Part shown: positions 4,039 to 29,011 of the stretch, piece by piece
How positions within the stretch are numbered: the stretch's first letter is position 1
Layout of the letters: every line of letters starts with the position of its first letter
DNA from: a virus
IMG/VR virus record: IMGVR_UViG_3300044644_000813
Location: 1-47,622 of that record
DNA: 47,622 nt
Direction: 5' to 3' (one strand)
Notes under the pieces: model-generated
What the model was told of the DNA's origin: nothing
The model's input: the letters and a program-made list of their open reading frames with translations, nothing else
Databases searched by the model: none
Made by a program: the position numbers and the translations under genes

Positions 4039-4069
4039 TTTGACCACCTTTCTTTTTCGTTATAGTGGA

Positions 4070-4156: not shown

Positions 4157-4168
4157 AAAATTCTGGGG

Positions 4169-4218: not shown

Positions 4219-4253
4219 CCAGCTCGACATTGTCAAGCCGACACGCCGTTAGG

Positions 4254-4713: not shown

Positions 4714-4715
4714 TA

Positions 4716-4898
4716 TTAGTTCTCCCATGTTAGTTCGTATAGTTTTGCTAGTGCCTCATCATCTGAGTCATCAAATTCATCTAGTGGAGGTTGTTCCTCA
4801 TCTACCTCATCAAGGTATGCGTATGCGTCTGCGACATCTGATTGGATAGTGTCCCACTTAGACACGCTGTTAGTTTCGTATGAGTATGCGTATGACAT
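4716..4898 (-). CDS. hypothetical early protein, 60 aa, very acidic
   Basis: Tyr-rich N-terminus (MSYAYSYE) and a strongly acidic centre (LDEVDEEQPPLDEFDDSDDE). Such charge can mimic DNA, as in small phage anti-host proteins, but this is speculation from composition alone. Coupled by TAATG to the 37-aa gene upstream. Confidence 0.65.
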   Translation of the reverse strand: MSYAYSYETNSVSKWDTIQSDVADAYAYLDEVDEEQPPLDEFDDSDDEALAKLYELTWEN

Positions 4899-5560: not shown

Positions 5561-5588
5561 TTGACTAGAATATATGGCGGTGTATAAT
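5561..5588 (+). promoter_or_regulatory. sigma70-type leaderless promoter
   Basis: TTGACT (5561-5566), a 16-bp spacer, then a perfect TATAAT (5583-5588). The predicted +1 is the A of the ATG at 5595, so the first rightward gene is probably leaderless. Confidence 0.7.
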
Positions 5589-5594
5589 AAGAGC

Positions 5595-6323
5595 ATGGAA
5601 CCATATGCATCTATAGTTAAAAATCAGATTGATCAAATTCTAGAAAAAGAACCTAATGCGGTTCTAATTGAAGATAACATAGTTGTATTAAAAAACTGGC
5701 TATCAGATGATCTTTGCGACAAACTAGTAAGCCATGTAGAATCATTTGGAGAAGATATCTGGTGGGACAGAAATAAAAGAGAATGGTGGCATGGCAAGTT
5801 CTTTTTTATAGAAGATCCAGAACTTGATGAAGAGCTAAAACATATGCGTATAAGGCTACAGGAGCTCTTTAGACAGGAGCTTTGGGTCGAAAGCATGAAC
5901 TCTGTTCATAGAATGACCAAGGGGCAGTCTATGTTCTTACATGCTGATAATTTGTCGGAATCACTAGGTATGGATAATAAATGCGTATTTGGTGTAACAC
6001 ACTATCTAAGCAATTTTGACGGTGGTGAAATATCCTATCCAAATGTTAAGTTTATGTATAAACCTGAAAAGGGAGATTTGCTGCTACATCCTGGATTTGA
6101 AAAATATGCACACTATACAGAAGAAGTAAAAGGTGATAGGGTTAGATATATTGTAGCTGGATTTGCTTCACTTCCAGAAGCGCAAGCATTAAGAGAAAAT
6201 GACCAGCTATATGAGGGTATTAATGCAATTAAAATGTCTAGTGCTATAACTGGAGAATATGGCGAAAATGATTTGCCAAAGAATTTCTACACTTTGCCAT
6301 TTGAACATTCGGAAAAAAAATAA
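5595..6323 (+). CDS. 2-oxoglutarate/Fe(II) dioxygenase-like protein 1
   Basis: A prolyl-4-hydroxylase-like member of the 2OG-Fe(II) oxygenase superfamily, 242 aa. The double-stranded beta-helix core carries the iron ligands H116-x-D118 (LHADN), distal H173 (YAHYTEEV), and R182/R184 for 2OG binding, with the family's typical L-x-N-F-D-G-G-E strand between. Such enzymes hydroxylate proline or other substrates using O2, Fe(II) and 2-oxoglutarate. A frame start at 5574 exists but lies upstream of the promoter's -10 box, so the leaderless ATG at 5595 is preferred. It stands alone, 1.2 kb from two relatives. The substrate is unknown. Confidence 0.85.
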   Translation: MEPYASIVKNQIDQILEKEPNAVLIEDNIVVLKNWLSDDLCDKLVSHVESFGEDIWWDRNKREWWHGKFFFIEDPELDEELKHMRIRLQELFRQELWVESMNSVHRMTKGQSMFLHADNLSESLGMDNKCVFGVTHYLSNFDGGEISYPNVKFMYKPEKGDLLLHPGFEKYAHYTEEVKGDRVRYIVAGFASLPEAQALRENDQLYEGINAIKMSSAITGEYGENDLPKNFYTLPFEHSEKK

Positions 6324-6332
6324 ATTTAAGTA

Positions 6333-6362
6333 TTGACTTCAATAAAAGTTAAATGCTACACT
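6333..6362 (+). promoter_or_regulatory. sigma70-type promoter
   Basis: TTGACT (6333-6338), 18-bp spacer, TACACT (6357-6362). It precedes a non-coding structured stretch, the 25-aa gene and the tRNA, and probably transcribes them together. Confidence 0.6.
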
Positions 6363-6369
6363 TAGTTTG

Positions 6370-6556
6370 CTTTGTGGGGGCTTACCCTGAAACTCAATAT
6401 GTACCAGATATAATCTGTGGGTATTTCAGGACTGCTTCTCTATCTTTCCAAAAAGTTAAAATTTGGGGGGTAGGGGGGCTTTCCTAAAATCTAATATCCC
6501 CAGATAAATCATTAAAAAACATAAAGAAAATACATAAGAAAAGGCGGGATAGAAAG
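6370..6556 (+). ncRNA. possible structured leader or non-coding RNA
   Basis: No gene fits here. An outer stem CCTGAAA (6386-6392) / TTTCAGG (6424-6430) encloses an inner AGAT-ATA-ATCT hairpin. Downstream are two runs of six G separated by TA (6465-6478). It lies directly behind a good promoter and ahead of a micro-gene and tRNA. It may be a regulatory leader or small RNA; no known riboswitch class is recognised. Confidence 0.3.
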
Positions 6557-6634
6557 ATGAAGAATCTTATTGCAGTAGCCATAATAACTGTCATTACTTT
6601 TATCCTTGGCATACTCATACAGATAATAGGCTAA
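6557..6634 (+). CDS. membrane micro-protein, 25 aa
   Basis: Begins MKNLIAVAIITVITFILGI and is almost wholly a single transmembrane helix, stopping 5 bp before the tRNA. GAAAG lies just upstream of the ATG. Phage micro-proteins of this type are common but unassigned. It is short enough to be chance, although the continuous hydrophobic stretch argues for a real peptide. Confidence 0.45.
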   Translation: MKNLIAVAIITVITFILGILIQIIG

Positions 6635-6639
6635 TATAA

Positions 6640-6714
6640 GGGCCTATAGCTTAATCTGGTTAAAGCAATTGTCTTATATGCAATCGACTTTGGGTTCAAA
6701 TCCCAATAGGCCTA
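6640..6714 (+). tRNA. tRNA-Ile, anticodon UAU
   Basis: A complete 75-nt cloverleaf. The acceptor stem is GGGCCUA/UAGGCCU with discriminator A and no encoded CCA. The D stem is GCUU/AAGC, the anticodon stem AUUGU/GCAAU with loop CUUAUAU (anticodon UAU), and the T arm UUGGG-UUCAAAU-CCCAA. UAU decodes AUA, a codon used freely in this AT-rich genome. Many bacteria read AUA with a lysidine-modified CAU tRNA, so this tRNA would bypass that modification. CCA must be added by the host enzyme. Confidence 0.9.
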
Positions 6715-6715
6715 C

Positions 6716-6744
6716 TTGGTTTCTCATTTAATAAGGAGTATAAT
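6716..6744 (+). promoter_or_regulatory. sigma70-type leaderless promoter
   Basis: TTGGTT (6716-6721), 17-bp spacer, perfect TATAAT (6739-6744) exactly 6 nt before the ATG at 6751. The -35 box is weak. An AAGGAG lies inside the spacer, so translation from a longer transcript is also possible. Confidence 0.55.
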
Positions 6745-6750
6745 ACTTAT

Positions 6751-6903
6751 ATGCTAGCTTATGATGTCCCTCTTTCCGCCCTCCTTTTTGTGATATGGGC
6801 TGGGTTACCAGCAGAATACACAGATCAGCCTACTGAGGAAGAAATCCTGGCATATATCCAGATGTTGAAGAATATCATAGATAATGAAAATAATGGTCTC
6901 TAA
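6751..6903 (+). CDS. small protein with hydrophobic N-terminus, 50 aa
   Basis: Begins MLAYDVPLSALLFVIWAGLP, a short hydrophobic segment, then an acidic helical tail (TEEEILAYIQMLKNIIDNEN). Possibly a membrane-associated peptide. It lies between the tRNA and the second dioxygenase gene. The perfect TATAAT placed 6 nt before the ATG suggests leaderless expression. I do not recognise a family. Confidence 0.6.
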   Translation: MLAYDVPLSALLFVIWAGLPAEYTDQPTEEEILAYIQMLKNIIDNENNGL

Positions 6904-6954
6904 TTTTCGGCTCACTTTTCGCCGCACTTTCTGAAATCAATAAGGAGATATGTT

Positions 6955-7707
6955 ATGTCTATAGAAGTTGAAATATACAACGATAAAATTTTTTATTTTA
7001 AAAATGCAATACCTAATTCTAAAGAAATTCTAAAGTATATAGAATCTACGTCAAATGATATTATTACCGATTGGCTACCATGGGGAAATAAATATGCGTT
7101 TTCATTAGAGCAAAAAAAAGATTGGGAAGAATTAGGAATTACTCCAGAAGACTTTGGGTTAGCTAAATGTATATATGACCCAAACTGGTTTGACCCACAT
7201 AAAAAAGATACTGAAAGTCATTGGGTATTTGAATCTATTAATAAAGCTGTTATAGATTGCTCAGATAAGTATGCAAATTATTTAGGGATAGACACTACCT
7301 TGAATCCTAGAATCCCATCGCCTGGGTATGTTATTGGTAAATACAACTCTATGCAATCTAGAGGACTGCACACAGACTGCCCCTATGATGACCTAGAGCA
7401 CTCCTTTGTCATATATTACAATGATGATTATTCTGATGGATATTTATATTTTCCAAACTATAATTTACAAATAAAACCAGAATCTGGAAGCATCATCATG
7501 TTTAAATCTTCGGATCTAGATAATGAACATGAAGCTGTTCCTAATATAGGTTTTAAGTACATAACCCCACATTTTTGGAGAATGGGTCCATCACAAGGGT
7601 TTGTACCTTGGGGATTCAAAGATGTTAAATTACCAGAAGACATAACTAATGATTTTTATAACTTAGAAACAGTAGAAAGAAATAAAAAACGGATATTTGG
7701 TGAATGA
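6955..7707 (+). CDS. 2-oxoglutarate/Fe(II) dioxygenase-like protein 2
   Basis: A 250-aa oxygenase-fold protein. Iron ligands are H139-x-D141 (LHTDC) and distal H192 (NEHEAV); K201 takes the usual basic 2OG-anchor position. The core strand Y-Y-N-D-D-Y-S-D-G-Y-L-Y-F-P matches the phage family consensus (N-D-D-Y/F-x-G-G). AAGGAG precedes the ATG. The stop overlaps the start of the next oxygenase gene (ATGATG), so the pair is translationally coupled. The substrate cannot be read from the sequence. Confidence 0.85.
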   Translation: MSIEVEIYNDKIFYFKNAIPNSKEILKYIESTSNDIITDWLPWGNKYAFSLEQKKDWEELGITPEDFGLAKCIYDPNWFDPHKKDTESHWVFESINKAVIDCSDKYANYLGIDTTLNPRIPSPGYVIGKYNSMQSRGLHTDCPYDDLEHSFVIYYNDDYSDGYLYFPNYNLQIKPESGSIIMFKSSDLDNEHEAVPNIGFKYITPHFWRMGPSQGFVPWGFKDVKLPEDITNDFYNLETVERNKKRIFGE

Positions 7708-8300
7708 TGGATAAAGTATACTTAGATGAAAACATATTTTATATAGAAGATTTTATATCTAAAGAAGATATTGCCAAAATTCAAAAATCTATAAAGTCTA
7801 ATTCTTACATTGAAGATTATGGACATTTAGCTCACACATCTTTAATTTTAACAGAAAAAAGTTTAGTTGAAACTTGGAATTTTTATTTATCTAAATTAGA
7901 GGATATTTTTAATAACTCAACCGAATGGTTAGTACGTCCATATACAGACTTTATCTCATTAATTAAATATAGAAATATTGATTTTTTATCAAAAGACACT
8001 CCTATAGAGTTTTTAAACTCGGAATATATAATGCCACCGCATGCAGATGACGTTTCATACGATCTATCTGAAAAAGATTTAAATGAAAGAAAGTCTTTTG
8101 TATCAAAAGGTTTAGTTATATTTATTAATGATGATTTTGATGACGGTGAAATTGTTTATGTTAATAAAGGCATATCTGTAAAGCCAAAATCTGGAACTCT
8201 AATTTGTCACCCTGGCACAAAAGAATACTCCCATGCAGTAAATAGATTTTATAATGGAGATAGAGTCATAGCGTCAATGTTTGTTCACAAAAAAATTTAA
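7704..8300 (+). CDS. 2-oxoglutarate/Fe(II) dioxygenase-like protein 3
   Basis: A 198-aa compact relative. Ligands are H113-x-D115 (PPHADD), distal H177 (YSHAVN) and R187 (GDRVIA). The core strand is I-N-D-D-F-D-D-G-E-I. The prolyl-hydroxylase-like ending resembles protein 1 more than protein 2. It is coupled to the preceding gene by a 4-nt overlap and followed by a strong terminator. Confidence 0.85.
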   Translation: MMDKVYLDENIFYIEDFISKEDIAKIQKSIKSNSYIEDYGHLAHTSLILTEKSLVETWNFYLSKLEDIFNNSTEWLVRPYTDFISLIKYRNIDFLSKDTPIEFLNSEYIMPPHADDVSYDLSEKDLNERKSFVSKGLVIFINDDFDDGEIVYVNKGISVKPKSGTLICHPGTKEYSHAVNRFYNGDRVIASMFVHKKI

Positions 8301-12596: not shown

Positions 12597-12944
12597 ATGG
12601 CAGGACAAAAGAATTTCGAAGTAGATCAAAATGCAACATTTAGTTTTATAGTAGAATATAAAGACGAAAATGACGATGCGATTGATCTTACTGGTGCATC
12701 TGCAAAGATGCAGGTGCGTGATACAAAAGGCGGCAGCAAGTTAGCTGTTACATTAACATCACCATCTGGCGGAATTACAATTGATGGACCTAATGGTAAA
12801 TTAACTGTAAAAATGACACCAACACAAACAAGCAAAATCTTTTATCCTAAATCATCTTATGATGTTATGGTTGTAGATTCTAATGGGAATAAGATAAAGC
12901 TCCTTGAAGGGTTTATGACCCTAAATAGATCGGTAACTATTTAA
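12597..12944 (+). CDS. virion baseplate/fibre adaptor, Ig-like (BppU-N-like)
   Basis: A 115-aa all-beta protein. The start F-x-V-D-Q-x-A-T-F and the phrase D-L-T-G-A-S-A-K-M-Q-V-R-D are typical of small phage tail proteins with a BppU N-terminal-like immunoglobulin fold, which join fibres to the tail. An earlier ATG at 12590 is in another frame that soon stops. It begins the adhesin operon and overlaps the next gene by 1 nt (TAATG). Confidence 0.65.
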   Translation: MAGQKNFEVDQNATFSFIVEYKDENDDAIDLTGASAKMQVRDTKGGSKLAVTLTSPSGGITIDGPNGKLTVKMTPTQTSKIFYPKSSYDVMVVDSNGNKIKLLEGFMTLNRSVTI

Positions 12945-13384
12945 TGACTGAATCCGTAGTTGTTCGAGAGCAAATAAATAAAGTAGTAATTTCTTCTCCA
13001 GGTCCACAAGGACCAAGAGGAAGAACCATTCTAAATGGAAATGGAGACCCAGCAGCAAATTTGGGTCTTACTGGAGATTTTTACTTTGATATGCTTTCAG
13101 CTGCATTTCACGGACCAAAGCTTTCTGATTTAAATTGGTCAGGAGCAAGCAAAATATTTTTAACAAATAATACACTAGCGTATCCTTGGGAATTAACCCA
13201 AGTTACTGGTCCTTTATCTGGAGTGTATTCTGTTGTTATTAATCATGGACTAGGATATCAACCAAACGTAACAGTTAAGTCTAGTGCAGGGGATATTTTG
13301 GAAACTGGAATAGACTACAATAGTACTAATCAAATAACACTGACTATGGCTCAACCATTTTCAGGGACAGCATACCTGTCATAA
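12944..13384 (+). CDS. minor tail protein with short collagen-like motif
   Basis: A 146-aa protein. Residues about 19-26 read GPQGPRG, two collagen-type G-x-y triplets preceded by S-P, a common trimerisation linker in phage fibres. The rest is beta-rich and ends with a V-I-N-H-G-L-G-Y-Q-P-x-V-T-V segment seen in fibre head domains. Collagen-like prolines are potential targets of prolyl hydroxylases, and relatives of these enzymes are encoded in the same window. Probably a tail-tip or fibre component. Confidence 0.65.
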   Translation: MTESVVVREQINKVVISSPGPQGPRGRTILNGNGDPAANLGLTGDFYFDMLSAAFHGPKLSDLNWSGASKIFLTNNTLAYPWELTQVTGPLSGVYSVVINHGLGYQPNVTVKSSAGDILETGIDYNSTNQITLTMAQPFSGTAYLS

Positions 13385-13395
13385 GGAGATAGCAA

Positions 13396-14676
13396 ATGGC
13401 AAGAAAATTTTTAGTTAGCGTTGATCTCAACAAGAATGAGTTGCTCAATGCTAGAATCCAAAACTTAGGCTCAGCGCCTTCAAATCCAGTATCTGGTCAA
13501 ATATACTACAATACTGGCACAAATATTCTTTACTTCTACAATGGAACAGAGTGGACACCCGCATCTGGTTCTACAGAAGTAATTCAAGACATTATTGGTT
13601 CGTCCGTATTAGCAGGAACAGCTTTAACCGCAACATACGACGATACCGCAGGCACAACAACATTAAAACTTAATGATACAGCAGTAACTGCTGGATCTTA
13701 TGGGTCAGCAACAGCAATTCCGACATTTACAGTTGACTCCCAAGGTCGTTTGACTGCAGCAGGAACAGTAAACGTAGCAACCAATCTTTCAGTTGCTGGA
13801 GACACTGGAACAGACACAGTTGACCTTCTTACAGACACACTCACAGTTGCTGGCGGAGAAGGAATTGATGTAGCCGTAACGAATAACACAATTACAGTAT
13901 CTGCAGAAGATGCAACATACACAAATAAAGGTGTTGCTTCATTTAGCTCAACAGACTTTACAGTCACAGCAGGAGCAGTATCTCTTAATAAAGATCCAGT
14001 AATTACACTTTCAGGAGATGTAACTGGTTCTGCAACAATGACCAATTTGGGTGATGTAACAATATCAACAACAATTGAGCCAAACTCAGTTGTTCTTGGA
14101 ACAGACACAACTGGAAGTTACATTTCAACAATTGCTGGAACATCTGGAGAAATTACAGTTTCAGGATCTGGATCAGAATCAGCAGCAGTAACTATTGGAT
14201 TGCCAGATGATGTAACAGTTACTGGTAACTTAACCATTGGTGGAAACCTTGATGTTCAAGGATCTATTAACTCTATAAGCACAACAGAAGTTAATATTGT
14301 TGATAATAAAGTTGTTCTTAATACAAATGTTACTGGAGCCCCATCAGCAGATGCTGGTCTTAAGGTAAACCGTGGAACCTCTGCAGATGTAGAAGTTTTA
14401 TGGAATGAGGCGGCAGACCAATGGACATTAACAAATGACGGTACAAATTATCATGAGATAACAAGAAAGTATAAGACAACTCTCAATACATCAGCAACAT
14501 CTTATACAGTAACTCACAATTTAGCAACAAAAGATGTTGTAGTTTCTATATATGAAGTTGCAGCACCATATGCAGAGATTCTTACAGATATTGAGCATAC
14601 ATCAGACTCAGCAGTAACTATTAAGTTTGCAGTTGCACCAGCATCTGGAGAATATAGAGTAGTTGTAATAGGCTAA
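13396..14676 (+). CDS. tail fibre protein, beta-repeat type
   Basis: A 426-aa Thr/Ser/Ala/Val-rich protein with no Cys. The N-terminus includes G-Q-I-Y-Y-N-T-G-T-N-I-L-Y-F-Y-N-G-T-E-W, an attachment motif shared with the next gene. The middle consists of beta-solenoid-like repeats with T-L-S-G-D-V-T-G-S and N-L-T-I-G-G-N-L-D-V-Q-G phrases typical of long phage fibres. The C-terminal 80 residues repeat the H-N-L-A-T-K-D-V-V-V theme of a head domain. It has a strong AAGGAG site. Confidence 0.75.
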   Translation: MARKFLVSVDLNKNELLNARIQNLGSAPSNPVSGQIYYNTGTNILYFYNGTEWTPASGSTEVIQDIIGSSVLAGTALTATYDDTAGTTTLKLNDTAVTAGSYGSATAIPTFTVDSQGRLTAAGTVNVATNLSVAGDTGTDTVDLLTDTLTVAGGEGIDVAVTNNTITVSAEDATYTNKGVASFSSTDFTVTAGAVSLNKDPVITLSGDVTGSATMTNLGDVTISTTIEPNSVVLGTDTTGSYISTIAGTSGEITVSGSGSESAAVTIGLPDDVTVTGNLTIGGNLDVQGSINSISTTEVNIVDNKVVLNTNVTGAPSADAGLKVNRGTSADVEVLWNEAADQWTLTNDGTNYHEITRKYKTTLNTSATSYTVTHNLATKDVVVSIYEVAAPYAEILTDIEHTSDSAVTIKFAVAPASGEYRVVVIG

Positions 14677-14683
14677 GTCAAAA

Positions 14684-15148
14684 ATGAAACTTAAGTCTTC
14701 GTTAAACCTTCTAACGCTTGCAGAGAATCCATCTGCAGCTTTAGAAGGTGACGTATACTTTAACATTTTAACAAAAAATATTAGAATATACAATGGAGCA
14801 GTTTGGGTAGACATTACTCCTAAAAGCGATGACCCTACTCCATTTTATATGCACACTCACGCATATGATGGTTCAGTACATACAGTTAATACACAAAATC
14901 CTATTAATTTTAAAAATACTAATACAGCACAAAGCGTTTTAGAGACTACCCCGCTTGTTTTAGGATTTGACGGTGGTGGACCAGGTGATGAAGTAGATTT
15001 TCCTAGGTTTGAAAATCTATCATTACTTTCAGGAGGAGCACCAGATTCTTTATACTATCCCGAATCTGATAGTATTGTAATTAATGGTGGGGACTCTTCT
15101 GATCAATATTCACCAGTAATAAATGGAGGGGATTCAAGTGGCAACTAG
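14684..15148 (+). CDS. tail fibre-associated protein, 154 aa
   Basis: The N-terminal 50 residues (LEGDVYFNILTKNIRIYNGA) resemble the fibre attachment motif of 13396-14676. The C-terminus carries two copies of VINGGDSS. It overlaps the next gene, whose preferred GTG start (15138) lies within its final codons. Probably a small fibre or an adaptor between fibres. Confidence 0.6.
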   Translation: MKLKSSLNLLTLAENPSAALEGDVYFNILTKNIRIYNGAVWVDITPKSDDPTPFYMHTHAYDGSVHTVNTQNPINFKNTNTAQSVLETTPLVLGFDGGGPGDEVDFPRFENLSLLSGGAPDSLYYPESDSIVINGGDSSDQYSPVINGGDSSGN

Positions 15149-16892
15149 AATTCAATTAAGAAGAGATGTAGAAGATGATTGGTTTAGAGATAACCCAATA
15201 TTAAGATCTGGAGAAATTGGAATATCTTTAGATTTAAATACATTTAAAATTGGAGACGGACAAACTCCTTGGAGAGATCTTGATTACGCCTTGGCTGGCA
15301 CAATTGATGAATATATTCCGTTAAATCAAAAATCAGTTCCTGGTGGAGTTGCAGCACTAGATTCTGCTGGCAAAGTACCAGATTCTCAAATTCCAGCAGG
15401 AATTGCAAGAGATTCAGAAGTATCTTTAGCAATTTCTACAGAGGTTGAAAATAGAAATTCAGCTATTACAAATGCTATATCAAACCTTATAGATACAGCA
15501 CCTGATGCATTAAATACTTTAAATGAAATTGCCGCTGCAATTAATGATGATGCTTCATACGCTGCAACTATAACAACAGCACTAGGAACAAAAGCTAATT
15601 TATCTGATGTTACAGCAGCAACTGCAGCAGCAGCAGCAGATGCTACAACAAAGGCTAACGCAGCGCAAGCAGCCGCCGCATCAGATGCTACATCTAAAGC
15701 TAGCGCAGCGCAAGCCGCAGCAACTGCTGCAGCCGCATCAGATGCTACATCTAAAGCTAGCGCAGCTCAAGCAGCAGCTATCTCAGCAGCAGAAACAGAT
15801 GCTACAACAAAAGCCAACGCAGCTCAAGCAGCAGCTATCTCAGCAGCAGCAACAGATGCTACAACAAAATCCAGCGCAGCTCAAGCAGCAGCAATATCTG
15901 CAGCAGCAACAGATGCTACAACAAAGGCTAACGCAGCACAAGCAGCAGCAATAACTGCAGCAGGAACAGACGCTACAACTAAGGTAGAAGCAGAAGCAGC
16001 ACTAAGAGTATCAGGAGATGCAGCTTCAGTATCTACAGCAGCAGCAGATGCTACAACAAAGGCCAACGCCGCTCAAGCAGCAGCTATCTCAGCAGCAGCA
16101 GCAGATGCTACAACAAAGGCTAACGCCGCTCAAGCAGCAGCAAGCTCTGCGGCAGACACAAAGGTATCATCTGCAATAGCAGCACTTACAAAATCTTCAG
16201 TTGGGCTTGCAAATGTTGATAATACAGCAGATGCTTCAAAGCCAGTGTCTGCAGCACAAGCTACTGCAATCGCAACTGCTAAGTCAGAAGCAATTGCAGA
16301 TGCAACAGCTCAGGTAAATGCAGTAATCGCATCAGCGCCAGCAGCACTTAATACTCTAGACGAGCTTGCAGCAGCACTTGGAGACGACGCAAGTTTTGCC
16401 GCTACAGTAACAGCTAATCTTTCATCTAAAGCCCCAATTGCCTCACCAACATTTACTGGTACAGTATCAGGAATTACAAAGACTATGGTTGGGCTTGGTA
16501 ATGTTGACAATACTTCTGATACCAACAAACCAATTTCTTCATTAACTCAAACTGCTTTAAATGCAAAATCTGATAACTTAATATCTACAGCTGGAACAAC
16601 AAGTACAAGCTATTCAATAACATCTTCTGATCTTTATAAAAGAATAGAGTTTAATTCGGCATCACCAATTACGGTTACTATACCAGCAGATATTACTTTA
16701 AACCTACCAATTGGCTCTAGTATTGAATTGCTTCAAGCAAATACTGGAAAGATAACTGTTCAGGGAGAGAGTGTATCTGTTTTAATTTATGGACCAGACA
16801 ATCAATTTAAATCCAGAGTACAGTGGTCATCAATATTTATTGAAAAAAGAGCAGCAAACAGCTGGTTGGTAACTGGCGATACGGAAGCCTAA
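15138..16892 (+). CDS. tail fibre: Mtd-N-like head joined to Ala-rich coiled-coil repeats
   Basis: A 584-aa protein. The N-terminal 50 residues (T-R-I-Q-L-R-R-D, then G-E-I-G-I-S-L-D and F-K-I-G-D-G) match the domain found at the N-terminus of phage major tropism determinants and many fibres. Roughly residues 155-360 are tandem 19-residue repeats like DATTKANAAQAAAISAAAT, probably a trimeric coiled coil. The distal part shares a module with 22430-25042. The GTG at 15138 after GGAGGGG is preferred to an upstream in-frame ATG. The repeats make the gene prone to recombination. Confidence 0.75.
   Translation: MATRIQLRRDVEDDWFRDNPILRSGEIGISLDLNTFKIGDGQTPWRDLDYALAGTIDEYIPLNQKSVPGGVAALDSAGKVPDSQIPAGIARDSEVSLAISTEVENRNSAITNAISNLIDTAPDALNTLNEIAAAINDDASYAATITTALGTKANLSDVTAATAAAAADATTKANAAQAAAASDATSKASAAQAAATAAAASDATSKASAAQAAAISAAETDATTKANAAQAAAISAAATDATTKSSAAQAAAISAAATDATTKANAAQAAAITAAGTDATTKVEAEAALRVSGDAASVSTAAADATTKANAAQAAAISAAAADATTKANAAQAAASSAADTKVSSAIAALTKSSVGLANVDNTADASKPVSAAQATAIATAKSEAIADATAQVNAVIASAPAALNTLDELAAALGDDASFAATVTANLSSKAPIASPTFTGTVSGITKTMVGLGNVDNTSDTNKPISSLTQTALNAKSDNLISTAGTTSTSYSITSSDLYKRIEFNSASPITVTIPADITLNLPIGSSIELLQANTGKITVQGESVSVLIYGPDNQFKSRVQWSSIFIEKRAANSWLVTGDTEA
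15607..16150 (+). repeat. Ala-rich 57-bp-type tandem repeats
   Basis: Imperfect tandem units of about 57 bp (19 codons) rich in GCAGCA and encoding DATTKANAAQAAAISAA-type blocks. Related repeats occur at about 20750-21560, in the fibre gene 20343-21941. Confidence 0.75.
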
Positions 16893-18412
16893 TGAGAAGT
16901 GCTAAAAAGAAAAGGGTTGTTAACTCTAAGCTTAAAGCATATCAGCAGTTTTTAGATAGTTTTGGCGGTGTAACATTAAAAGCTGGATGGAAGTCTTACA
17001 GGGGATCCTGGGTTCTAGGTACTGGAGTTGCTATAAGTAGCTCAGACCCATCTACATATGCAATATCTGGAGTTAAGCTTTCGCTTCCAAATCTTACTGC
17101 ATCTGCTGGAGTTACTGGTGGAACGGGATTAACATATTGGGTATCAGATGCTAATAGCTGGGTTGCTTCTGTTTCTTACAATACTACATCTACAAGCTAT
17201 CCATGCAATACTGGTTTAGTAACTAATGGAAGTAATCCACCATCTGCAAATTGTTGTGGAGGCGTTTCAACAATAGCTGGATCTGCTCCATATCAGTATG
17301 CAGCACAATTAAACCCTGCTTATTCTTTTTCATATTCAGCGGAATTAAATCCTGCTTATTCATTTTCATATTCAGCGCAATTAAATCCCGCTTATTCATT
17401 TTCATATTCAGCGCAACTTAGCCCTTCTTATTCTTTTTCTTACGGTGCTGCATACCAGAATCCTTCTTCATCTAGCTACGCAGCATACAATCAGCCAGCA
17501 TCAAGTTTTACATATAGCGCAAGCAGTTCTTACACAGCCGAAACAAGGTGTTGTGGAGTTTTTAATATTTCTAAGGATTTTTATCAAAGAACAAATGGAA
17601 TACCTTTATGTTCTCAATGCAGCGGGCCATGTGAAGAAACATATTCTTTTAGCCAATGTTGTCCTTCAGGTACAACAAAATCAGGTGCAACATGTTATTA
17701 CCCAGCCTCAGTTACACTGTCTTGCCCTTCTGGAGGAACCTTGTCTGGAAGTACTTGTACTGTAAGTACGCCAGCATCAACCACCTGTCCTTCAGGAGGA
17801 ACTTTATCTGGAAATAATTGCATAGTTGATGTGCCTGGATACTACTATTGCCCTTCAGGTGGAAACCTAAGTGGGTCTACTTGCACTGTTTCTGTAGCTG
17901 CTAGCTACAGCTGCCCTTCAGGCGGTAGCCTAAGTGGGTCTACTTGCACTGTTTCTGTACCTGCTAGCTACAGCTGCCCTTCAGGTGGTAGCCTAAGTGG
18001 GTCTACTTGCACTGTTTCTGTACCTGCTAGCTACAGCTGCCCTTCAGGTGGCTCTTTGTCTGGCACAACATGCTATGTTGGCCCTGGACCAACTCAGTAC
18101 AGCTGTTACACTCAAACAACAACGCAAACAAATTATAATTATTATTTAAATGTAATAAAATCAATCGGAGGAGTAGTAAGCTCAGTCGGTACAGATGTTG
18201 CATTGCCTTCACAGCCACTAGCAATAAAAGTTATTATTTCAGGAACAAATGTAAGATCTATTGCATATTCTACAATAGGAATGACTAATTCTATAGGAGA
18301 AAGATCAGACACAATTACTTCACCGAATAGGACAGGCGTGGTTGGAATAATAAAATCTCCGTCTCCATATAATCAAGGCTCGACAGTTTCTAACTTTTCT
18401 GCTACAATATAA
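16892..18412 (+). CDS. repeat adhesin with SFSY and Cys-pair repeats
   Basis: A 506-aa virion adhesin candidate. A basic N-terminus (MRSAKKKRVV) is followed by a beta domain to about residue 135. Next come four 12-residue repeats of the type AQLNPAYSFSYS (138-185), a Cys-rich linker with CC pairs, and at least six 21-residue repeats with C-P-S-G-G-x-L-S-G-x-x-C (C278 to C394; a degenerate seventh starts at C257). The regular Cys spacing (11 within a unit, 21 between units) suggests a disulphide-stapled rod outside the cell. The C-terminal 100 residues form another beta domain. It is coupled to the preceding fibre by TAATG. Receptor binding is inference. Confidence 0.7.
   Translation: MRSAKKKRVVNSKLKAYQQFLDSFGGVTLKAGWKSYRGSWVLGTGVAISSSDPSTYAISGVKLSLPNLTASAGVTGGTGLTYWVSDANSWVASVSYNTTSTSYPCNTGLVTNGSNPPSANCCGGVSTIAGSAPYQYAAQLNPAYSFSYSAELNPAYSFSYSAQLNPAYSFSYSAQLSPSYSFSYGAAYQNPSSSSYAAYNQPASSFTYSASSSYTAETRCCGVFNISKDFYQRTNGIPLCSQCSGPCEETYSFSQCCPSGTTKSGATCYYPASVTLSCPSGGTLSGSTCTVSTPASTTCPSGGTLSGNNCIVDVPGYYYCPSGGNLSGSTCTVSVAASYSCPSGGSLSGSTCTVSVPASYSCPSGGSLSGSTCTVSVPASYSCPSGGSLSGTTCYVGPGPTQYSCYTQTTTQTNYNYYLNVIKSIGGVVSSVGTDVALPSQPLAIKVIISGTNVRSIAYSTIGMTNSIGERSDTITSPNRTGVVGIIKSPSPYNQGSTVSNFSATI
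17303..17446 (+). repeat. four 36-bp tandem repeats
   Basis: Encode A-[QE]-L-[NS]-P-[AS]-Y-S-F-S-Y-[SG] four times within the 16892-18412 adhesin. Being multiples of 3, copy changes keep the frame. Confidence 0.85.
17723..18083 (+). repeat. six 63-bp tandem repeats (Cys pairs)
   Basis: Period of 63 bp, encoding 21-residue units with two Cys each. The last three units are nearly identical at DNA level, indicating recent amplification. Confidence 0.85.
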
Positions 18413-18434
18413 ATATAAACAGAAAGAGATAATA

Positions 18435-18683
18435 ATGAAAAATCCATACATGAGGGGTGCCAGACCCTGGGATCTTTTTAATAAAGAGCTTGGAAGGGTA
18501 GATGAAGATTTAGCCCAAGAGCGACTTGAGATATGTAAAGTTTGTCCAGAGCTTATTAAAGCAACATCTCAGTGTAAAAAGTGTGGATGTATCATGAATC
18601 TAAAAACAAAATTACCAAACGCCAGTTGCCCCCTAGGTAAGTGGTCTGCAGTTAATCCAGATGAAAATGAGGAAATTATATAA
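18435..18683 (+). CDS. Cys-rich zinc-binding protein, paralogue 1
   Basis: An 82-aa protein with R-P-W-D-L-F near the start, then C-K-V-C-P, C-K-K-C-G-C-I-M and a final C-P-L-G-K-W. This gives a probable two-knuckle zinc fold. A clear paralogue (RPWDF, CLSCP, CKKCGCVM, CPIEKW) is encoded at 26645-26902. Both follow repeat adhesins, so a role in adhesin folding, assembly or modification is plausible. Similar small proteins beside phage fibre genes are known to me only as unassigned families. It has a good GAAAGAG site and overlaps the next gene (TAATG). Confidence 0.75.
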   Translation: MKNPYMRGARPWDLFNKELGRVDEDLAQERLEICKVCPELIKATSQCKKCGCIMNLKTKLPNASCPLGKWSAVNPDENEEII

Positions 18684-18961
18684 TGGAAAATCCACCAATT
18701 AAAGTTGCTTTTGTTATTGATGGCAAAGTTGTAGACGTTTTACACACAGATGAAAGACTCGCTTCAATATTTTTGAGTGACCCAGTAGTTATAGATGTAA
18801 CTGAAATTTATGCCAACGGAGGAGTTGGTATTAATATGACAAACTGGGATTGGGATGGAGAGAATTTTTCATACCCAGCATCATCATCAATTGGCTCACC
18901 AACAGAAGAAGAGCTCTTAGCAGAAGATTTAGCAATAGAAGAAGCAGACAAGCAACTTTAA
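18683..18961 (+). CDS. hypothetical adhesin-cassette protein, 92 aa
   Basis: A beta-rich start (KVAFVIDGKVVDVLHTDERL) and an acidic helical end (TEEELLAEDLAIEEADKQL). The W-D-G-E-N-F phrase resembles the W-x-Y-D-G-x-x-F phrase in the 26202-26648 protein, which occupies the same slot in the second cassette. May be an assembly factor or small virion protein. Translationally coupled to the zinc protein. Confidence 0.6.
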   Translation: MENPPIKVAFVIDGKVVDVLHTDERLASIFLSDPVVIDVTEIYANGGVGINMTNWDWDGENFSYPASSSIGSPTEEELLAEDLAIEEADKQL

Positions 18962-20342: not shown

Positions 20343-21941
20343 ATGGCAACAGTAAATAAAAACTTTAGAATTAAAAATGGGCTTATCGTTGAGGGTGGCA
20401 CAGCTACCGTTAACGGTTTTGGTGTATTAACCAAGGCCCAAGCAGACCAAGACTACATTGTTGGTATTATTGGTGGTACAGCAACTTCAGCCAATACAGC
20501 AAATACAGTAGTAAAACGCGATGCCAATGGCAATTTTGCCGCAGGAACAATTACTGCTACATTTGTTGGTAACCTTACTGGTGATGTAACAGGTACAGTT
20601 TCAAGTCTTTCAAATCATGACACAGCAGACCTTGCAGAAAATCCAGCAAACAAATATTTTACAGATGCTCGTGCATTGTCAGCAACAGCCGCAGCATACG
20701 ATGCAGCAGGCTCAGCAGCAGCAGCACAGTCAGCAGCAATTACTGCAGCAGCAACAGATGCTACAACTAAGGTAGCAGCAGAAGCAGCACTTAGAGTATC
20801 AGGCGACGCAGCTTCAGTATCAACTGCAGCAGCAGATGCAACATCTAAGGCTAACGCAGCTCAAGCAGCAGCAGAAGCAACCGCAGCAGCAGATGCAACA
20901 TCTAAGGCTAACGCAGCTCAAGCAGCAGCTATCTCAGCAGCAGCAGCAGATGCTACTACAAAAGCCAACGCAGCACAGTCTGCAGCAGCAACAGATGCTA
21001 CTACAAAAGCCAACGCCGCTCAAGCAGCAGCCGAAGCAACAGCAGCAGCAGCGCTTTCATCTGCAATCTCAACAGAGGTTTCAAACCGTAACTCAGCAAT
21101 TTCAACTGCAGTAGATTCATTAGTGGATGGCGCACCATCACTTCTTAACACATTAAATGAATTAGCAGCAGCAATCAATGATGATGCTAATTACACAACA
21201 ACTATAACAACAGCCCTTGGAACAAAGGCTAACTCAGCTCAAGTAACAACAGATATCGCGGCAGCAGTTTCAACAGCCGCATCAGATGCTACTACAAAAG
21301 CTAACGCAGCTCAAGCAGCAGCAGAAGCAACCGCAGCAGCAGATGCAACATCTAAGGCTAACGCAGCTCAAGCAGCAGCAGAAGCAACAGCAGCAGCAGC
21401 GCTTTCAACACACAGCGCAGATACAACAAACATTCACGGAATTGCAGATACTTCACTTCTAGCAACTACAGCAAATGTAGCAACAGCAGTCTCAACAGCC
21501 GCATCAGATGCTACTACAAAAGCTAACGCAGCTCAAGCAGCAGCAGAAGCAACAGCAGCAGCAGCTAATGCAGCTCAGCAAAATGGAACTACATCATTTA
21601 CAGCAATTAATTACAATGATGTTGCTAAGCAGGTTGCAGCAACAACTGGAAATATTGCGGTGGCAGCAGAAACAACAGCTATCTCATGGGTAGCAGCAGA
21701 CTACAGAAGCGCTAAGTTTGTAGTAAAAGTAAAAAATGGTGTACATACTCAGGTTTCAGACCTAGTAGTAACCCTTGATACTGCAAATAACGTAGCAGTT
21801 TCTGAATATGGAATTACATATTCAAACGGAACAGAATTGGCTGCAGTTTCAGCAGATTATTCTGGATCAGATGTAAGAATTAGAGTAACACCAGCAAACG
21901 CTAACACAGAAGTTGTGGTTGTTGGAACGCTAATTAAATAA
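20343..21941 (+). CDS. tail fibre with Ala-rich coiled-coil repeats, 532 aa
   Basis: The N-terminus (MATVNKNFRIKNGLIVEGG) is shared with the short gene at 22011. A fibre shaft with G-N-L-T-G-D-V-T-G-T-V-S-S follows, then Ala-rich repeats (DATSKANAAQAAAEATAAA) through much of the centre. A T-H-S-A-D-T-T-N-I-H-G-I motif, typical of phage fibre triple-helix registers, lies near residue 360. The C-terminus is beta-rich. It closely resembles the middle of 15138-16892 at protein and DNA level. Probably a trimeric fibre. Confidence 0.75.
   Translation: MATVNKNFRIKNGLIVEGGTATVNGFGVLTKAQADQDYIVGIIGGTATSANTANTVVKRDANGNFAAGTITATFVGNLTGDVTGTVSSLSNHDTADLAENPANKYFTDARALSATAAAYDAAGSAAAAQSAAITAAATDATTKVAAEAALRVSGDAASVSTAAADATSKANAAQAAAEATAAADATSKANAAQAAAISAAAADATTKANAAQSAAATDATTKANAAQAAAEATAAAALSSAISTEVSNRNSAISTAVDSLVDGAPSLLNTLNELAAAINDDANYTTTITTALGTKANSAQVTTDIAAAVSTAASDATTKANAAQAAAEATAAADATSKANAAQAAAEATAAAALSTHSADTTNIHGIADTSLLATTANVATAVSTAASDATTKANAAQAAAEATAAAANAAQQNGTTSFTAINYNDVAKQVAATTGNIAVAAETTAISWVAADYRSAKFVVKVKNGVHTQVSDLVVTLDTANNVAVSEYGITYSNGTELAAVSADYSGSDVRIRVTPANANTEVVVVGTLIK
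20750..21560 (+). repeat. Ala-rich repeats, second array
   Basis: GCAGCA-rich imperfect repeats encoding DATTKANAAQAAA-type blocks, related to those at 15607-16150. Interrupted by a non-repeat spacer at about 21060-21270. Confidence 0.7.
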
Positions 21942-25071: not shown

Positions 25072-26115
25072 ATGGCAAATAAGAGAATAGGTAGAAAATC
25101 CTCAGCGCAGGATAACTTCTTAGAACCAAGTGCAGTTACTTCCTTAACTGCAACAAATGTGGGTACTGGGCGGGCATATAATAATGGCGCAGCATCTCTT
25201 ACATGGTCTTTGCCAGCCGCATCACCCCCAGCAACACTTTATACCATTACATCAACCCCAGCAACAACAACACAAACTACTTCTAGCACTAGTTATACAT
25301 TTACTGGATTAGCAAGTGCCACGGCTTATACTTTTACAGTTGTTGCTTCAAACGCTGCGGGATCATCTCAGCCAACAACATCAGGATCAATAACTGCTAC
25401 AACAGTTCCGCAAGCTCCAAACGCATCTGTTTCAACAAGTGCCGCTGGGCCAACCCCAGTCCCAGCTTCTGGCTTTGACAGAATTACTTTTTCTGCAAAC
25501 GCTACAGGTGGAAGCGCAATAACTACTTTTCAAATTACTTCTAGCATTCGTGGATCTTTGTCTGCTTCTGCAACATCTCCATTTGATACAGCATCTCCAA
25601 ACTCTGAAACTTATACTGTTTACGCAACGAATGCAAATGGACAGTCTGCTGGCACGACAACTGGAACTGTAGAAACTTTTACGCCACCACACTTCCCACC
25701 GTTCTTCCCACCGTTCTTCCCACCACATTTCCCACCATTCTTCCCACCTTTCTTCCCACCACACTTCCCACCGTTCTTCCCACCACACTTCCCACCGTTC
25801 TTCCCACCGTTCTTCCCACCACATTTCCCACCATTCTTCCCACCACACTTCCCACCATTCTTCCCACCATTCTTCCCACCGTTCTTCCCACCGTTCTTCC
25901 CACCACACTTCCCACCGTTCTTCCCACCACACTTCCCACCGTTCTTCCCACCGTTCTTCCCACCGTTCTTCCCACCGTTCTTCCCACCTTACTTCCCACC
26001 GTTCTTCCCACCACACTTCCCACCGTTCTTCCCACCGTTCTTCCCGCCACACTTTGTAGGAGGATCCTACTTCTGCCCATGGTGTGATTGCGCAGGGTCT
26101 AACTGGTACTGCTAA
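25072..26115 (+). CDS. FN3 adhesin with 31 PPxF tetrapeptide repeats
   Basis: A 347-aa protein. Residues about 17-112 form a fibronectin type III domain ([22 protein letters not shown]), and residues 113-204 probably form a second. Residues 205-328 are 31 perfect P-P-x-F units, where x is F (20), H (10) or Y (1). A 19-residue Cys/Trp tail ends [14 protein letters not shown]. The array likely forms an extended polyproline-like stalk with aromatic and His faces; the tail may be disulphide- or metal-bonded. The Pro array is an obvious candidate substrate for the dioxygenase genes that start 0.8 kb downstream. Confidence 0.75.
25684..26055 (+). repeat. 31 x 12-bp tandem repeat encoding PPxF
   Basis: Consensus CCACCxxxxTTC, coding strand almost free of G. 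Units vary mainly at the x codon (CAC/CAT, TTC/TTT, one TAC). The 12-bp period preserves the frame when copy number changes. Confidence 0.95.
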
Positions 26116-26201: not shown

Positions 26202-26648
26202 ATGCCATACTTTGGATATGTAAGAGACGGAATAGTCAAATACGTTCAGCTTGTAACAAGCTCTACCCCCGCACAGTCAAAATGGATAGCGCTAAATAGA
26301 TCAGGAGTTATCTTAAAAGACTCAAGTAATTACGATGTAATGCCAGGAGACTTGTTTACTGATGGTAAATTTTATAAAAAAGACGCCGAAACTAATAATA
26401 CAACTTTACTAGAAGATGGTGCATTTACTCTCCCAAACGCAATAAGAGTTGCTGGAATTGTTGATGGCGAAATAGTCGGACAATGGGGAATGGGAACAGA
26501 ACTCTTTGAAAACATAGAAGAAGCTCATCAGTTTATTGATGATATAGTTAACTCTCAAATAGTTGAAATAGAACAAGAGCAGCAGTTTTTAGTTGAAAAA
26601 GGTTGGCTTTATGATGGAGTCAATTTTACTAACCCAGACAATGCTTGA
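26202..26648 (+). CDS. hypothetical cassette protein, 148 aa
   Basis: A beta-rich N-terminal half (MPYFGYVRDGIVKYVQLV) and a helical acidic segment, ending with G-W-L-Y-D-G-V-N-F, a phrase also typical of phage tail-fibre assembly or small virion proteins. It occupies the same slot as 18683-18961 in the first cassette. AAAGGAG precedes the ATG, and the stop overlaps the zinc-protein start. Confidence 0.6.
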   Translation: MPYFGYVRDGIVKYVQLVTSSTPAQSKWIALNRSGVILKDSSNYDVMPGDLFTDGKFYKKDAETNNTTLLEDGAFTLPNAIRVAGIVDGEIVGQWGMGTELFENIEEAHQFIDDIVNSQIVEIEQEQQFLVEKGWLYDGVNFTNPDNA

Positions 26649-26902
26649 TGAGCAGCGATAGCAAAAAAAGTGCTTGGGAAAAGTATAAAGAAAGTCTAGG
26701 AGACTCCAGACCTTGGGATTTTTTAGATCCAAATACAAAATATGTAGATAAATCTGTATCTGAAAAAAGATACAGTATTTGTCTATCTTGTCCAGAATTT
26801 ATAAAAACAACAAAACAGTGTAAAAAATGTGGCTGTGTAATGACTTTAAAAACTAAACTTAGTAACGCTGAGTGTCCAATAGAAAAATGGGGAAAAGAAT
26901 GA
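26645..26902 (+). CDS. Cys-rich zinc-binding protein, paralogue 2
   Basis: 85 aa; R-P-W-D-F near residue 22, then C-L-S-C-P, C-K-K-C-G-C-V-M and C-P-I-E-K-W, the same pattern and spacing as 18435-18683. Its ATG overlaps the previous stop and its TGA overlaps the next ATG (ATGA). Conserved position beside adhesin and dioxygenase genes suggests a shared role; zinc binding is inferred from the cysteines. Confidence 0.75.
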   Translation: MMSSDSKKSAWEKYKESLGDSRPWDFLDPNTKYVDKSVSEKRYSICLSCPEFIKTTKQCKKCGCVMTLKTKLSNAECPIEKWGKE

Positions 26903-27561
26903 TGTATGAAAAAGAAGAGCTATTTCCAGGACTTTGGGTATATAGAAACGTAATTACTCCAGAGATGGATATAATTAATAGGCTAGAAAACGCTATAAGT
27001 AATTCCAAAGGTATGCATACTTGGAAAGAAGCAACAGTCGGATACAGAGAAAAAATGCCTGACTATAGAGATTGCGTAGACTTTAAATGGAAAAAGTTCG
27101 ATGATGATTTTGGAAACAAATACAATACCGAAGTGAATTCAGTATGGCAAGATGTATATGATGTTCAGGCTGTTGCACTAAATGATTACTCTTCTTTTTA
27201 CAATATTGAGTTAAAGTATTGGGAAGCAATGAATTTTATTAAATATGGAGAAGGTCAACATTTTTCTTACCATTCAGATCATGGTTGGTCATATATATCA
27301 ACAGTATCAATGGTTGCATATATTAACGATGATTATGAAGAGGGCGGACTAAGATTTGATAAGCTTGATTTAACAATAAAACCAAAAGCTGGAGACCTAT
27401 ACATATTCCCATCTACATATTTATTTTCACACGCTGCTCTTCCAGTAAAATCTGGTATTAAATATTCAATTGTTACAATGACAGATTATAATGATGCTAC
27501 ACATACAGAATCTTTTTATAGACAATTTATGTCTGAAAAGTCAATGAAAGATGGGTACTGA
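26899..27561 (+). CDS. 2-oxoglutarate/Fe(II) dioxygenase-like protein 4
   Basis: 220 aa from the ATG at 26899, which overlaps the upstream TGA; an in-frame upstream start would overlap the zinc gene by 30 nt. Ligands are H125-x-D127 (YHSDH), distal H178 (FSHAAL) and K188 at the 2OG-anchor position. The core strand is Y-I-N-D-D-Y-E-E-G-G-L. First dioxygenase after the PPxF adhesin; it overlaps the next gene. Confidence 0.85.
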   Translation: MMYEKEELFPGLWVYRNVITPEMDIINRLENAISNSKGMHTWKEATVGYREKMPDYRDCVDFKWKKFDDDFGNKYNTEVNSVWQDVYDVQAVALNDYSSFYNIELKYWEAMNFIKYGEGQHFSYHSDHGWSYISTVSMVAYINDDYEEGGLRFDKLDLTIKPKAGDLYIFPSTYLFSHAALPVKSGIKYSIVTMTDYNDATHTESFYRQFMSEKSMKDGY

Positions 27562-28295
27562 TGAACTTTGATGTTTATAAAGTTTATCCAAATCAATCAG
27601 CAAATATCCAGCCTTTAGGTGTAAAAAGAGAATGGATGGATGAGACATCTGATAAGCATGCTTATCATTGTTTTCCAGTAAGCTTATCAAATACTTTAGG
27701 TTGGGGAATTTCTTTTCCAGTTGATATTGAATTTATTTGGGACGGTATATCAGATTCAACGGATACTCATGTTAAGGTTTTAAAGGGTCACGAGTATGTT
27801 TCAACCTCAAGGGCTAATGCAACCATTAGCTTTAATACAAATTTGGTAATAAGAAGCGAAGAAAATGTAAGTATGCTGGCTATGCCGACACCAAACTGGC
27901 CAATAGATGGCGTTTGGCCTTTTACAACGTTAATAAGCACTTCATTTTTTAAAGGAACATTTCCTGTTGCATGGAGAATAACAAAGGCTAACGAAGTTAT
28001 TACTATACCAGCTAACACGCCAGTAGCATCAGTAATTCCTATATCTTTATCTAACTTAAACAATTCAGTAGCAACAATAAAAGGATACAAAGACTTGCCT
28101 ATAGACTTTTTCCCAAAAGAAGACTACGGTAAAATTGTTAGCGATATTAATAAATCTGGAAAATGGACTGACTTCTATAGAAATGCTGTAGACCATAAGA
28201 ATAATAAAATTGGATCTCATGAGGTAAAATCTTTAAGATTAAAAAATGATGAAACTTTCATAGATGGTCCAGAAGGCTGCGGTATACCAAAATGA
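27561..28295 (+). CDS. conserved cassette protein (DUF6065-like?), paralogue 2
   Basis: A 244-aa protein, beginning MNFDVYKVYPNQ, the most divergent of three related proteins. It keeps the W-P-F-T-T-L-I-S-T-S-F-F-K-G-T segment and I-P-A-N-T-P-V-A-S-V-I-P-I, equivalent to the A-G-T-P-x-x-Q-I-I-P motif in the others. Aromatic-rich N-terminus. Function unknown. Tandem arrangement with 28292-29011 between two dioxygenase genes implies a linked role. Confidence 0.6.
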   Translation: MNFDVYKVYPNQSANIQPLGVKREWMDETSDKHAYHCFPVSLSNTLGWGISFPVDIEFIWDGISDSTDTHVKVLKGHEYVSTSRANATISFNTNLVIRSEENVSMLAMPTPNWPIDGVWPFTTLISTSFFKGTFPVAWRITKANEVITIPANTPVASVIPISLSNLNNSVATIKGYKDLPIDFFPKEDYGKIVSDINKSGKWTDFYRNAVDHKNNKIGSHEVKSLRLKNDETFIDGPEGCGIPK

Positions 28296-29011
28296 ACAAG
28301 ATAACATTTCATTCTAACAAGCATTATAATGATACAGAAACAGCACCCTGCCCAACTGCAAAAGTTATACCAAAATGGTGGCATGATGCTGATATTTATA
28401 TAAAAGATTTTTATGGCAATCCAGTTTCTAATGCAAATAAAGACGGCGGTAAGATGCTAAACTTTAAAGCATGTCCAGCTATGCTTGATACATTTACAAC
28501 AGGATACACACTTGTTACACCTTGTGATATAGAATTTTATGAAAAAAATAATAGAATCAAAGCAAAAGTTCCATTAAAGTTTGATGATTTTGTTGGAGAG
28601 AGGCCAGCATCTGATGGATTCCAAGTTCCTTTTGGCTATGATAAGAATCATTTTCATTGGTATGCTAATTGGGCTCCACAGCTACCAGAAGGGTACAGCT
28701 CTTTGTATGTTCAGCCTATAAATCATTTTGATTTACCATGGCTTACTGTTGGTGGTATAATAGATAGTGATAAGGTTACAACCTCTGGGCTGATACCGTT
28801 TTTTATACAAAATGGATTTACTGGCGTTGTTCCAGCAGGGACACCATATTTACAAATAATACCATTTAAAAGAGAAGATTGGGAATCAGATTTTATTTTT
28901 CATAAGCCAATTGATATTATGCAAAAAGCTATGAAGACGTCAGAGACTTTTAGAACACCAGAGGGTGGAGTCTATAAGAAGAAATTTTGGACTAGAAGGA
29001 GATATAAGTAA
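28292..29011 (+). CDS. conserved cassette protein (DUF6065-like?), paralogue 3
   Basis: A 239-aa close relative of 18981-19664, with matching motifs P-K-W-W-H, F-V-G-E-R, I-N-H-F-D-L-P-W-L-T-V-G-G-I and A-G-T-P-Y-L-Q-I-I-P-F-K-R-E. ATGA overlap with the gene upstream; the next dioxygenase starts immediately after the stop. Same tentative family caveat as its relatives. Confidence 0.6.
   Translation: MNKITFHSNKHYNDTETAPCPTAKVIPKWWHDADIYIKDFYGNPVSNANKDGGKMLNFKACPAMLDTFTTGYTLVTPCDIEFYEKNNRIKAKVPLKFDDFVGERPASDGFQVPFGYDKNHFHWYANWAPQLPEGYSSLYVQPINHFDLPWLTVGGIIDSDKVTTSGLIPFFIQNGFTGVVPAGTPYLQIIPFKREDWESDFIFHKPIDIMQKAMKTSETFRTPEGGVYKKKFWTRRRYK

Follow-up and report, generated by a model that had tools for sequence, protein, structure and literature searches.

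The 47.6-kb stretch of viral DNA that we analyzed, IMG/VR record IMGVR_UViG_3300044644_000813 (47,622 nucleotides, called the window below), carries on its plus strand an intact 506-residue open reading frame (ORF) at positions 16892..18412, which has relatives on 13 viral contigs; the encoded protein is predicted to be a jelly roll into which a very large repeat region is inserted. We consider it likely that this protein serves a freshwater actinophage in receptor binding, as part of its tail fiber or baseplate, and that in it a cysteine-free jelly roll displays a fast-evolving, fully disulfide-bonded insertion. The disulfides, the virion location, and the receptor role of the window protein are what we infer from the observations below.

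Layout of the ORF

The N-terminal scaffold half (residues 1-104, positions 16892..17203) lacks cysteine and includes a conserved YWVSDANSW strand. It is delimited by the family alignment, and the AlphaFold2 (AF2) model assigns it predicted local distance difference test (pLDDT) values of 76-91 in blocks over residues 21-100. The C-terminal half (residues 406-506, positions 18107..18409) is delimited in the same way, with pLDDT values of 76-94 in blocks over residues 411-506. Between the halves lies an insertion of 301 residues (residues 105-405, positions 17204..18106) in one hairpin of the cysteine-free jelly roll, placed by the alignment and by a 9-residue turn at the equivalent site in three relatives (L185, L187, and L188). 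This insertion holds all 24 cysteines.

An initial annotation of this DNA had described four SFSY-type 12-residue repeats followed by at least six 21-residue cysteine units, and we find both arrays. YSFSY is present four times in a stretch without cysteine (positions 17297..17439), for which Tandem Repeats Finder (TRF) reports a period of 36 and 4.0 copies. A cysteine cluster, C220-C257 (positions 17549..17662), lies between the two arrays and is conserved in L025 and L050. A degenerate first unit, CPSGTTKSGATC (C-P-S-G-T-T-K-S-G-A-T-C; positions 17660..17695), is the seventh unit by count and precedes the six exact C-P-S-G-G-x-L-S-G-x-x-C units of 21 residues and 63 bp each (positions 17723..18100). 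A degenerate DNA pattern for C-P-S-G-G-x-L-S-G-x-x-C-x-V has six matches, at 17723, 17786, 17849, 17912, 17975, and 18038, with exact 63-bp spacing, and 0 matches in 100 dinucleotide shuffles; TRF also reports a 63-bp array at 17849-18051. The last DNA units had been called nearly identical, which is true of units 3-5 (59-62 of 63 bases) but not of the final unit, which has diverged (31-36 of 63 bases shared with the other units).

Cysteine makes up 4.74% of the window ORF, whereas the 38 further ORFs of the window that were counted have 67 cysteines in 10,723 residues (0.62%). Six of the seven other ORFs counted in 12597-18961 are cysteine-free, and the seventh (18435) is a small six-cysteine protein. 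No hydrophobic signal segment is evident in the window ORF when its sequence is read by eye.

Predicted fold of the scaffold

In the AF2 model of the window protein, both scaffold halves are confident and the mean pLDDT is 63.9 overall. Compared with solved structures using VIA-align, the model matches CBM66 (4b1m; Z 17.6, root mean square deviation [rmsd] 2.4, 149 residues aligned), the Douge central fiber gp20 (8zdp; Z 16.8, rmsd 3.1, 165 aligned), the Douge baseplate (8zdo chain a; Z 15.3, rmsd 4.5, 173 aligned), and the TM4 GP23 receptor-binding domain (9n6a; Z 15.3, rmsd 2.9, 166 aligned). Numerous GH43 and lectin structures come within a few Z units of these top matches, indicating that the fold is a common one and that fold alone does not establish function. 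Matches in a viral model library are uncultured Caudovirales proteins and Arthrobacter, Gordonia, and Rhodococcus minor tail or fiber proteins. When solved structures were searched by sequence, we observed chance-level matches only, and no Pfam family of jelly-roll fold (e.g., Laminin_G_3) was found at E 1 in any of the 8 further family members scanned.

The AF2 model of a distant relative, L036, has a mean pLDDT of 77.6 and likewise confident scaffold halves. In this model, two 21-residue strands (residues 93-113 and 175-195) lead into and out of the insertion as a beta-ribbon stalk from the beta-sandwich. The two sequence halves are thus confidently predicted to form one cysteine-free, CBM66/concanavalin-like jelly roll.

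A family with one insertion site

A search with the N-terminal part alone returned three distant relatives, L036-L038, in which both flanks are kept and the repeats are replaced by other cysteine-rich sequence at the equivalent place. These relatives rule out a free-standing repeat adhesin, since they show that the two flanks are one domain with other insertions. Three further scans used the scaffold motif alone and were therefore blind to cysteine. Relatives were found in 158/167, 183/204, and 126/139 of their stretches, and the best 80 stretches of each scan (of 167, 204, and 139, respectively) were taken. A first set was built from the first two scans and the earlier loci using hidden Markov models (HMMs) of both scaffold halves. 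The N half was found in 110 ORFs and the C half in 110; the 108 with both halves in order were kept and the rest dropped. This set includes the loci found by the CPSGG pattern, which are cysteine-rich because of that pattern, although parity played no part in their selection.

Three members of the first set have the 9-residue turn and no insertion, and 105 have insertions of at least 25 residues, which fall into 60 clusters (below 15% shared 5-mers). Cysteine is present in 59 of these clusters. The other, L219, has a 194-residue, tyrosine-rich, cysteine-free insertion (from position 3001 on), a natural cysteine-less alternative. In the first 73 ORFs, the insertions span 73-446 residues and contain 6-64 cysteines. 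Among representatives, cysteine and tyrosine make up 11.4% and 9.4% of the insertions versus 0.1% and 3.5% of the scaffolds, charged residues make up 4.0% versus 9.7%, and histidine accounts for 0.3% of the insertions; CxC, CC, and CxxC spacings are common. The insertion site, the cysteine-free scaffold, and the open frame are kept across distant members. As judged from the aligned sequences, most members have a cysteine-free scaffold, and the family has one shared insertion site. On one virus contig (109629 bases), two family places (L255 and L259) lie a few kb apart, suggesting paralogs.

Even numbers of cysteines

The 21-residue units had been described as disulfide-capable, and this is strongly supported by a family-wide rule that insertion cysteines are even in number; full disulfide pairing is proposed on the basis of this rule. 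At the HMM edges, the cysteine count is even in 55 of the 59 cysteine-containing clusters of the first set, and each of the four odd clusters has one further cysteine just beyond the edge. Under a boundary rule by which a cysteine <10 residues from the HMM edge is counted as an insertion cysteine, the count is even in 59/59. This rule leaves out one cysteine of L165 (offset 10) and the single deeper scaffold cysteine of L220, L189, L131, and L203; the whole-domain count, a hand sum of tabulated counts, is even in 54/59. Fifteen other residues have even counts in 25-38 of the 59 clusters, or about half.

The rule was fixed before the last scan, which provided a held-out set. Both halves were present in order in 58 members, and a further four that had just the N half were set aside. 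Of the 58, 25 resembled earlier clusters and the remainder formed 20 new clusters, for which the count is even in 20/20 both by the boundary rule and for the whole domain. Under stricter clustering, 44/44 clusters are even. For comparison, only 11 of 19 non-family ORFs with at least 150 residues and at least 6 cysteines, taken from the loci collected, have an even count.

Mirrored cysteine spacing

The gaps between successive cysteines mirror one another about the middle of the insertion beyond shuffles (p <0.05) in 20/54 clusters, and in 12/18 held-out clusters (13/18 on a second run). When the two outermost gaps on each side are omitted, mirroring is seen in 8/43 clusters and in 8/18 held-out clusters. 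The same test on other residues gave 6/56 for tyrosine, 0/55 for glycine, 1/40 for asparagine, 3/24 for proline, and 7/60 for serine. One arm of L039 bears CNPY repeats and its other arm C-Y-x-T repeats, an arrangement that is swapped in L238. Such mirrored gaps would fit nested cross-strand disulfides in an antiparallel ribbon. The ladder of cysteine pairs originally proposed for the window protein has a mirrored counterpart in relatives but not in the window protein, whose own cluster has no mirror symmetry (p 0.81, shuffle test) and for which pairing inside each unit would be the simplest arrangement. Mirror symmetry is also absent from three held-out clusters whose repeats are rich in CC (p 0.987 to 1.0).

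Variation of the insertion

Two contigs, L004 and L005, are identical to the window DNA over the 13.5 kb compared, save for one extra 63-bp unit. Length polymorphism in the repeat region, suggested at the outset as a check, is thus seen among assembled contigs, and the proposal of recent expansion is strongly supported. Near relatives have 4, 3, 2, or 1 exact YSFSY copies. Insertion identity has a median of 39% over aligned columns at 70-80% scaffold identity (37 pairs), and in one family pair it is 27% at a scaffold identity of 78%. At the sequence level, then, the insertions diverge faster than the scaffolds.

Interpretation

We propose that the large insertion, identified by comparison, would project from one long antiparallel hairpin of the predicted jelly roll. 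All of its cysteines would pair as disulfides once the virion meets oxidizing lake water, giving a stiff, protease-resistant element that needs no hydrophobic core; the bonds would form in air after lysis. Each 21-residue unit of the window protein would most likely be a small disulfide-closed hairpin (cysteine i to i+11), and the tyrosine-rich YSFSY stretch a further beta segment. Gain or loss of whole units would change reach and contact surface and, since each unit adds two cysteines, would leave no free thiol. The insertion may contact the host surface, perhaps jointly with the lectin-like body. The earlier idea of an adhesin on a phage appendage is retained in this form, given the receptor-binding-domain fold and the one-base overlap with an Mtd_N fiber gene described below; the repeats as the adhesin body are not, being an insertion in one hairpin.

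Several observations count against this proposal. Structure prediction, put forward at the outset as a check, gives confident scaffold halves, but most of the window-protein insertion is predicted poorly, with long stretches at pLDDT <50; because insertion pLDDT is largely low, the hairpin fold of the units is one that we infer. The window ORF has 0 Pfam families at E 0.1 and no PHROG match. The boundary rule was set after the four odd counts had been seen in the first set, and at bare HMM edges only 11 of the 20 held-out clusters are even, the nine odd ones each having one more cysteine one residue past the edge. The clusters in this test share ancestry and are not independent events, so that binomial p-values overstate independence. 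Metagenome assembly can miscount near-identical repeats, and the unit number may therefore be an artifact. Among 18 related records, thioredoxin is over the cut-off in 10; the thiol oxidase Evr1_Alr was found in 0/18, an uninformative result in that the positive control gave no match either.

The insertion could instead be a passive, stiff, protease-resistant repetitive spacer or stalk that sets distances or holds subunits together through inter-chain disulfides and itself binds nothing. We regard this as unlikely, although it would accommodate the repeats with their changes in copy number, the scarcity of charged residues in the insertions, and the precedent of phage Milano, whose tail and baseplate are disulfide-linked (PMC10811340). 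A spacer inserted in a hairpin, rather than between two domains, would be an odd placement, however, and divergence that outpaces the scaffold suits a contact surface better. Intrachain pairing is also the best fit to the even counts, though inter-chain bonds made in pairs would be compatible with them.

The thioredoxin matches, together with the common CxC, CC, and CxxC spacings, would also fit cysteines that bind metal (zinc or iron-sulfur) in a protein that stays reduced. This is very improbable: cysteine counts are divisible by four in only 43/79 clusters, so there is no bias toward tetrads, histidine is scarce, and mirrored spacings along two arms fit cross-strand pairs. In addition, the cysteines of TraN, discussed below, could all be disulfide-bonded in models (PMC9246713). 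A functionless low-complexity drift, in which slippage multiplies two-cysteine units and even counts are a by-product, likewise seems quite improbable. It would explain the near identity of units 3-5 and the one-unit difference between otherwise identical contigs, but insertions built of one-cysteine repeat units have even totals as well (46 cysteines in L240, 10 in L201, 12 in L195, and 20 in L123, including a boundary cysteine). Evenness under stricter clustering and the preservation of site, scaffold, and frame across distant members also speak against drift.

More tentatively, and with somewhat more doubt than confidence, the receptor-binding reading can be extended to suggest that an antibody-like format arose independently in phages that infect freshwater Actinobacteria. 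Here, a constant cysteine-free jelly roll would carry, on a long beta-ribbon, a hypervariable and fully disulfide-paired element (with as many as 32 bonds), which mirrored cystines would often zip across the strands, and gain or loss of cystine rungs would shift reach and specificity without a reverse transcriptase. A disulfide-locked variable docking element would be a new design for phages and would give those that infect abundant lake bacteria a simple way to change their receptor binding rapidly. With it, the question of how host recognition varies in such phages in the absence of diversity-generating retroelements becomes testable. Even, mirror-symmetric cysteines would be a sequence-only signature that predicts oxidized folding for a protein that is synthesized in a reducing cytoplasm and is likely part of the virion. 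Natural disulfide-zipped ribbons of 73-446 residues would also provide novel scaffolds, comparable to bovine knob domains.

Comparison with known systems

The bovine ultralong third heavy-chain complementarity-determining region (CDR-H3) has a beta-ribbon stalk from a beta-sandwich, as in the L036 model, and bears a cysteine-rich disulfide knob with a variable number of cysteines, to which the proposed disulfide-paired insertion would correspond; its conserved CPDG and YxYxY motifs recall the CPSG and YSYSY of the family (PMC5994613). It differs in having no homology, an immunoglobulin fold, and a length of up to 70 residues versus 73-446 for the insertions, and its diversity is proposed to arise from activation-induced cytidine deaminase in B cells (PMC5994613). 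We therefore treat the resemblance as an analogy that would reflect convergence.

The Douge gp20 C-terminal domain (8zdp/8zdq) and BppU CBM (8zdo) share the predicted jelly-roll fold and sit at the tail tip or baseplate, where the window protein would also lie; binding targets of the Douge CFP-tip-CTD and BppU-CBM are M. smegmatis and glycans (PMC13033339). Sequence identity is only about 10-13%, and the word disulfide is absent from the text of the Douge paper (PMC13033339). The TM4 GP23 C-terminal domain (9n6a), a phage receptor-binding domain by its entry title, matches in fold at 8% identity. In phage Milano, disulfides occur in the tail and baseplate, as we propose here, so that cysteine pairs on a phage appendage, earlier called unusual, are not without precedent; there, they link sheath, tube, and baseplate subunits, whereas here they would lie in a variable insertion of one domain (PMC10811340).

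The repeat unit is not private to this phage, as its pattern matched 41 viral and 12 genome stretches. Among the genome matches are TraN of Sphingobium and Sphingorhabdus, proteins from Polynucleobacter, and L089, a short ORF that looks like a chance match. The two TraN loci tested, L081 and L091, carry F_T4SS_TraN (PF06986; 1e-66 and 5e-62) and, like the window ORF, have arrays of a 21-22-residue C-P-x-G-x-x-L-x-G-x-x-C unit, which may be convergent or exchanged. TraN is the mating-pair stabilization protein of type-F conjugation, with 22 conserved cysteines and a variable tip hairpin that enters a recipient porin (PMC9246713). It ends in a C-terminal domain (PF06986) that the window ORF lacks, and it resides in the cell envelope rather than in a virion. 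Membership of the window ORF in TraN is ruled out because PF06986 gives no match to it; with the unit and a role in adhesion in common, TraN is a good parallel in function, but it does not define a family with the window ORF. Separately, L085 (positions 2886-4865), from an uncultured Firmicutes metagenome-assembled genome, encodes a 660-residue protein that has numerous C-P-x-G-G units and an N-terminus that by eye resembles that of a prepilin. In the collection and with the terms searched, we found no paper describing such a phage family by title or opening abstract.

Genomic context and host

Directly upstream, also on the plus strand, lies a tail-fiber gene (positions 15123..16892; Pfam Mtd_N, 7.5e-09; tail PHROGs), whose stop codon overlaps the ATG of the window ORF by one base (TAATG). 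In L036, the genes for sheath and tube are located 3-5 kb downstream. The actinobacterial marker WhiB (PMC6802176) is over the cut-off in 15 of the 18 related records, including the 110-kb record of L005; within IMG/VR, the family is thus found mostly in actinophages. A cyanophage origin was rejected, with psbA in 0/18 related records, as was an Mtd-type diversity-generating retroelement target, with RVT_1 in 0/18, the record of L005 included, while the positive controls gave matches. Glutaredoxin is over the cut-off in one related record. In tblastn searches of isolated phages, P0001, L045, L057, L036, and L107 gave no match, and L185 gave weak partial matches only (the best with E 7e-4, covering 33% of the query).

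A small six-cysteine DUF6171-like protein occurs twice in the window (positions 18435-18683 and 26645-26902, the second recognized by eye); the first copy directly follows the cysteine-rich ORF, and the second comes after an FPPF protein. This FPPF protein (positions 25072-26115) has an FN3 domain, then a stretch of FPPF/FPPH encoded by a 12-bp repeat in about 29 copies, then a cysteine-bearing tail, and is another repeat-rich, fiber-like protein in the same gene block. A run of 2-oxoglutarate (2OG)-Fe(II) oxygenase-like genes is found at 5574-8300 and 26872-33420, eight with Pfam/PHROG matches (two below the Pfam cut-off) and the rest recognized by eye. As these genes adjoin the proline-rich repeat proteins, prolyl hydroxylation of fibers is a possible link. 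A second lectin-like protein is encoded at 33447-35207 (Laminin_G_3, E 4.9e-15), and alanine-rich 57-bp (19-residue) repeats are present in two different fiber genes, at 15624-16155 and 20703-21399.

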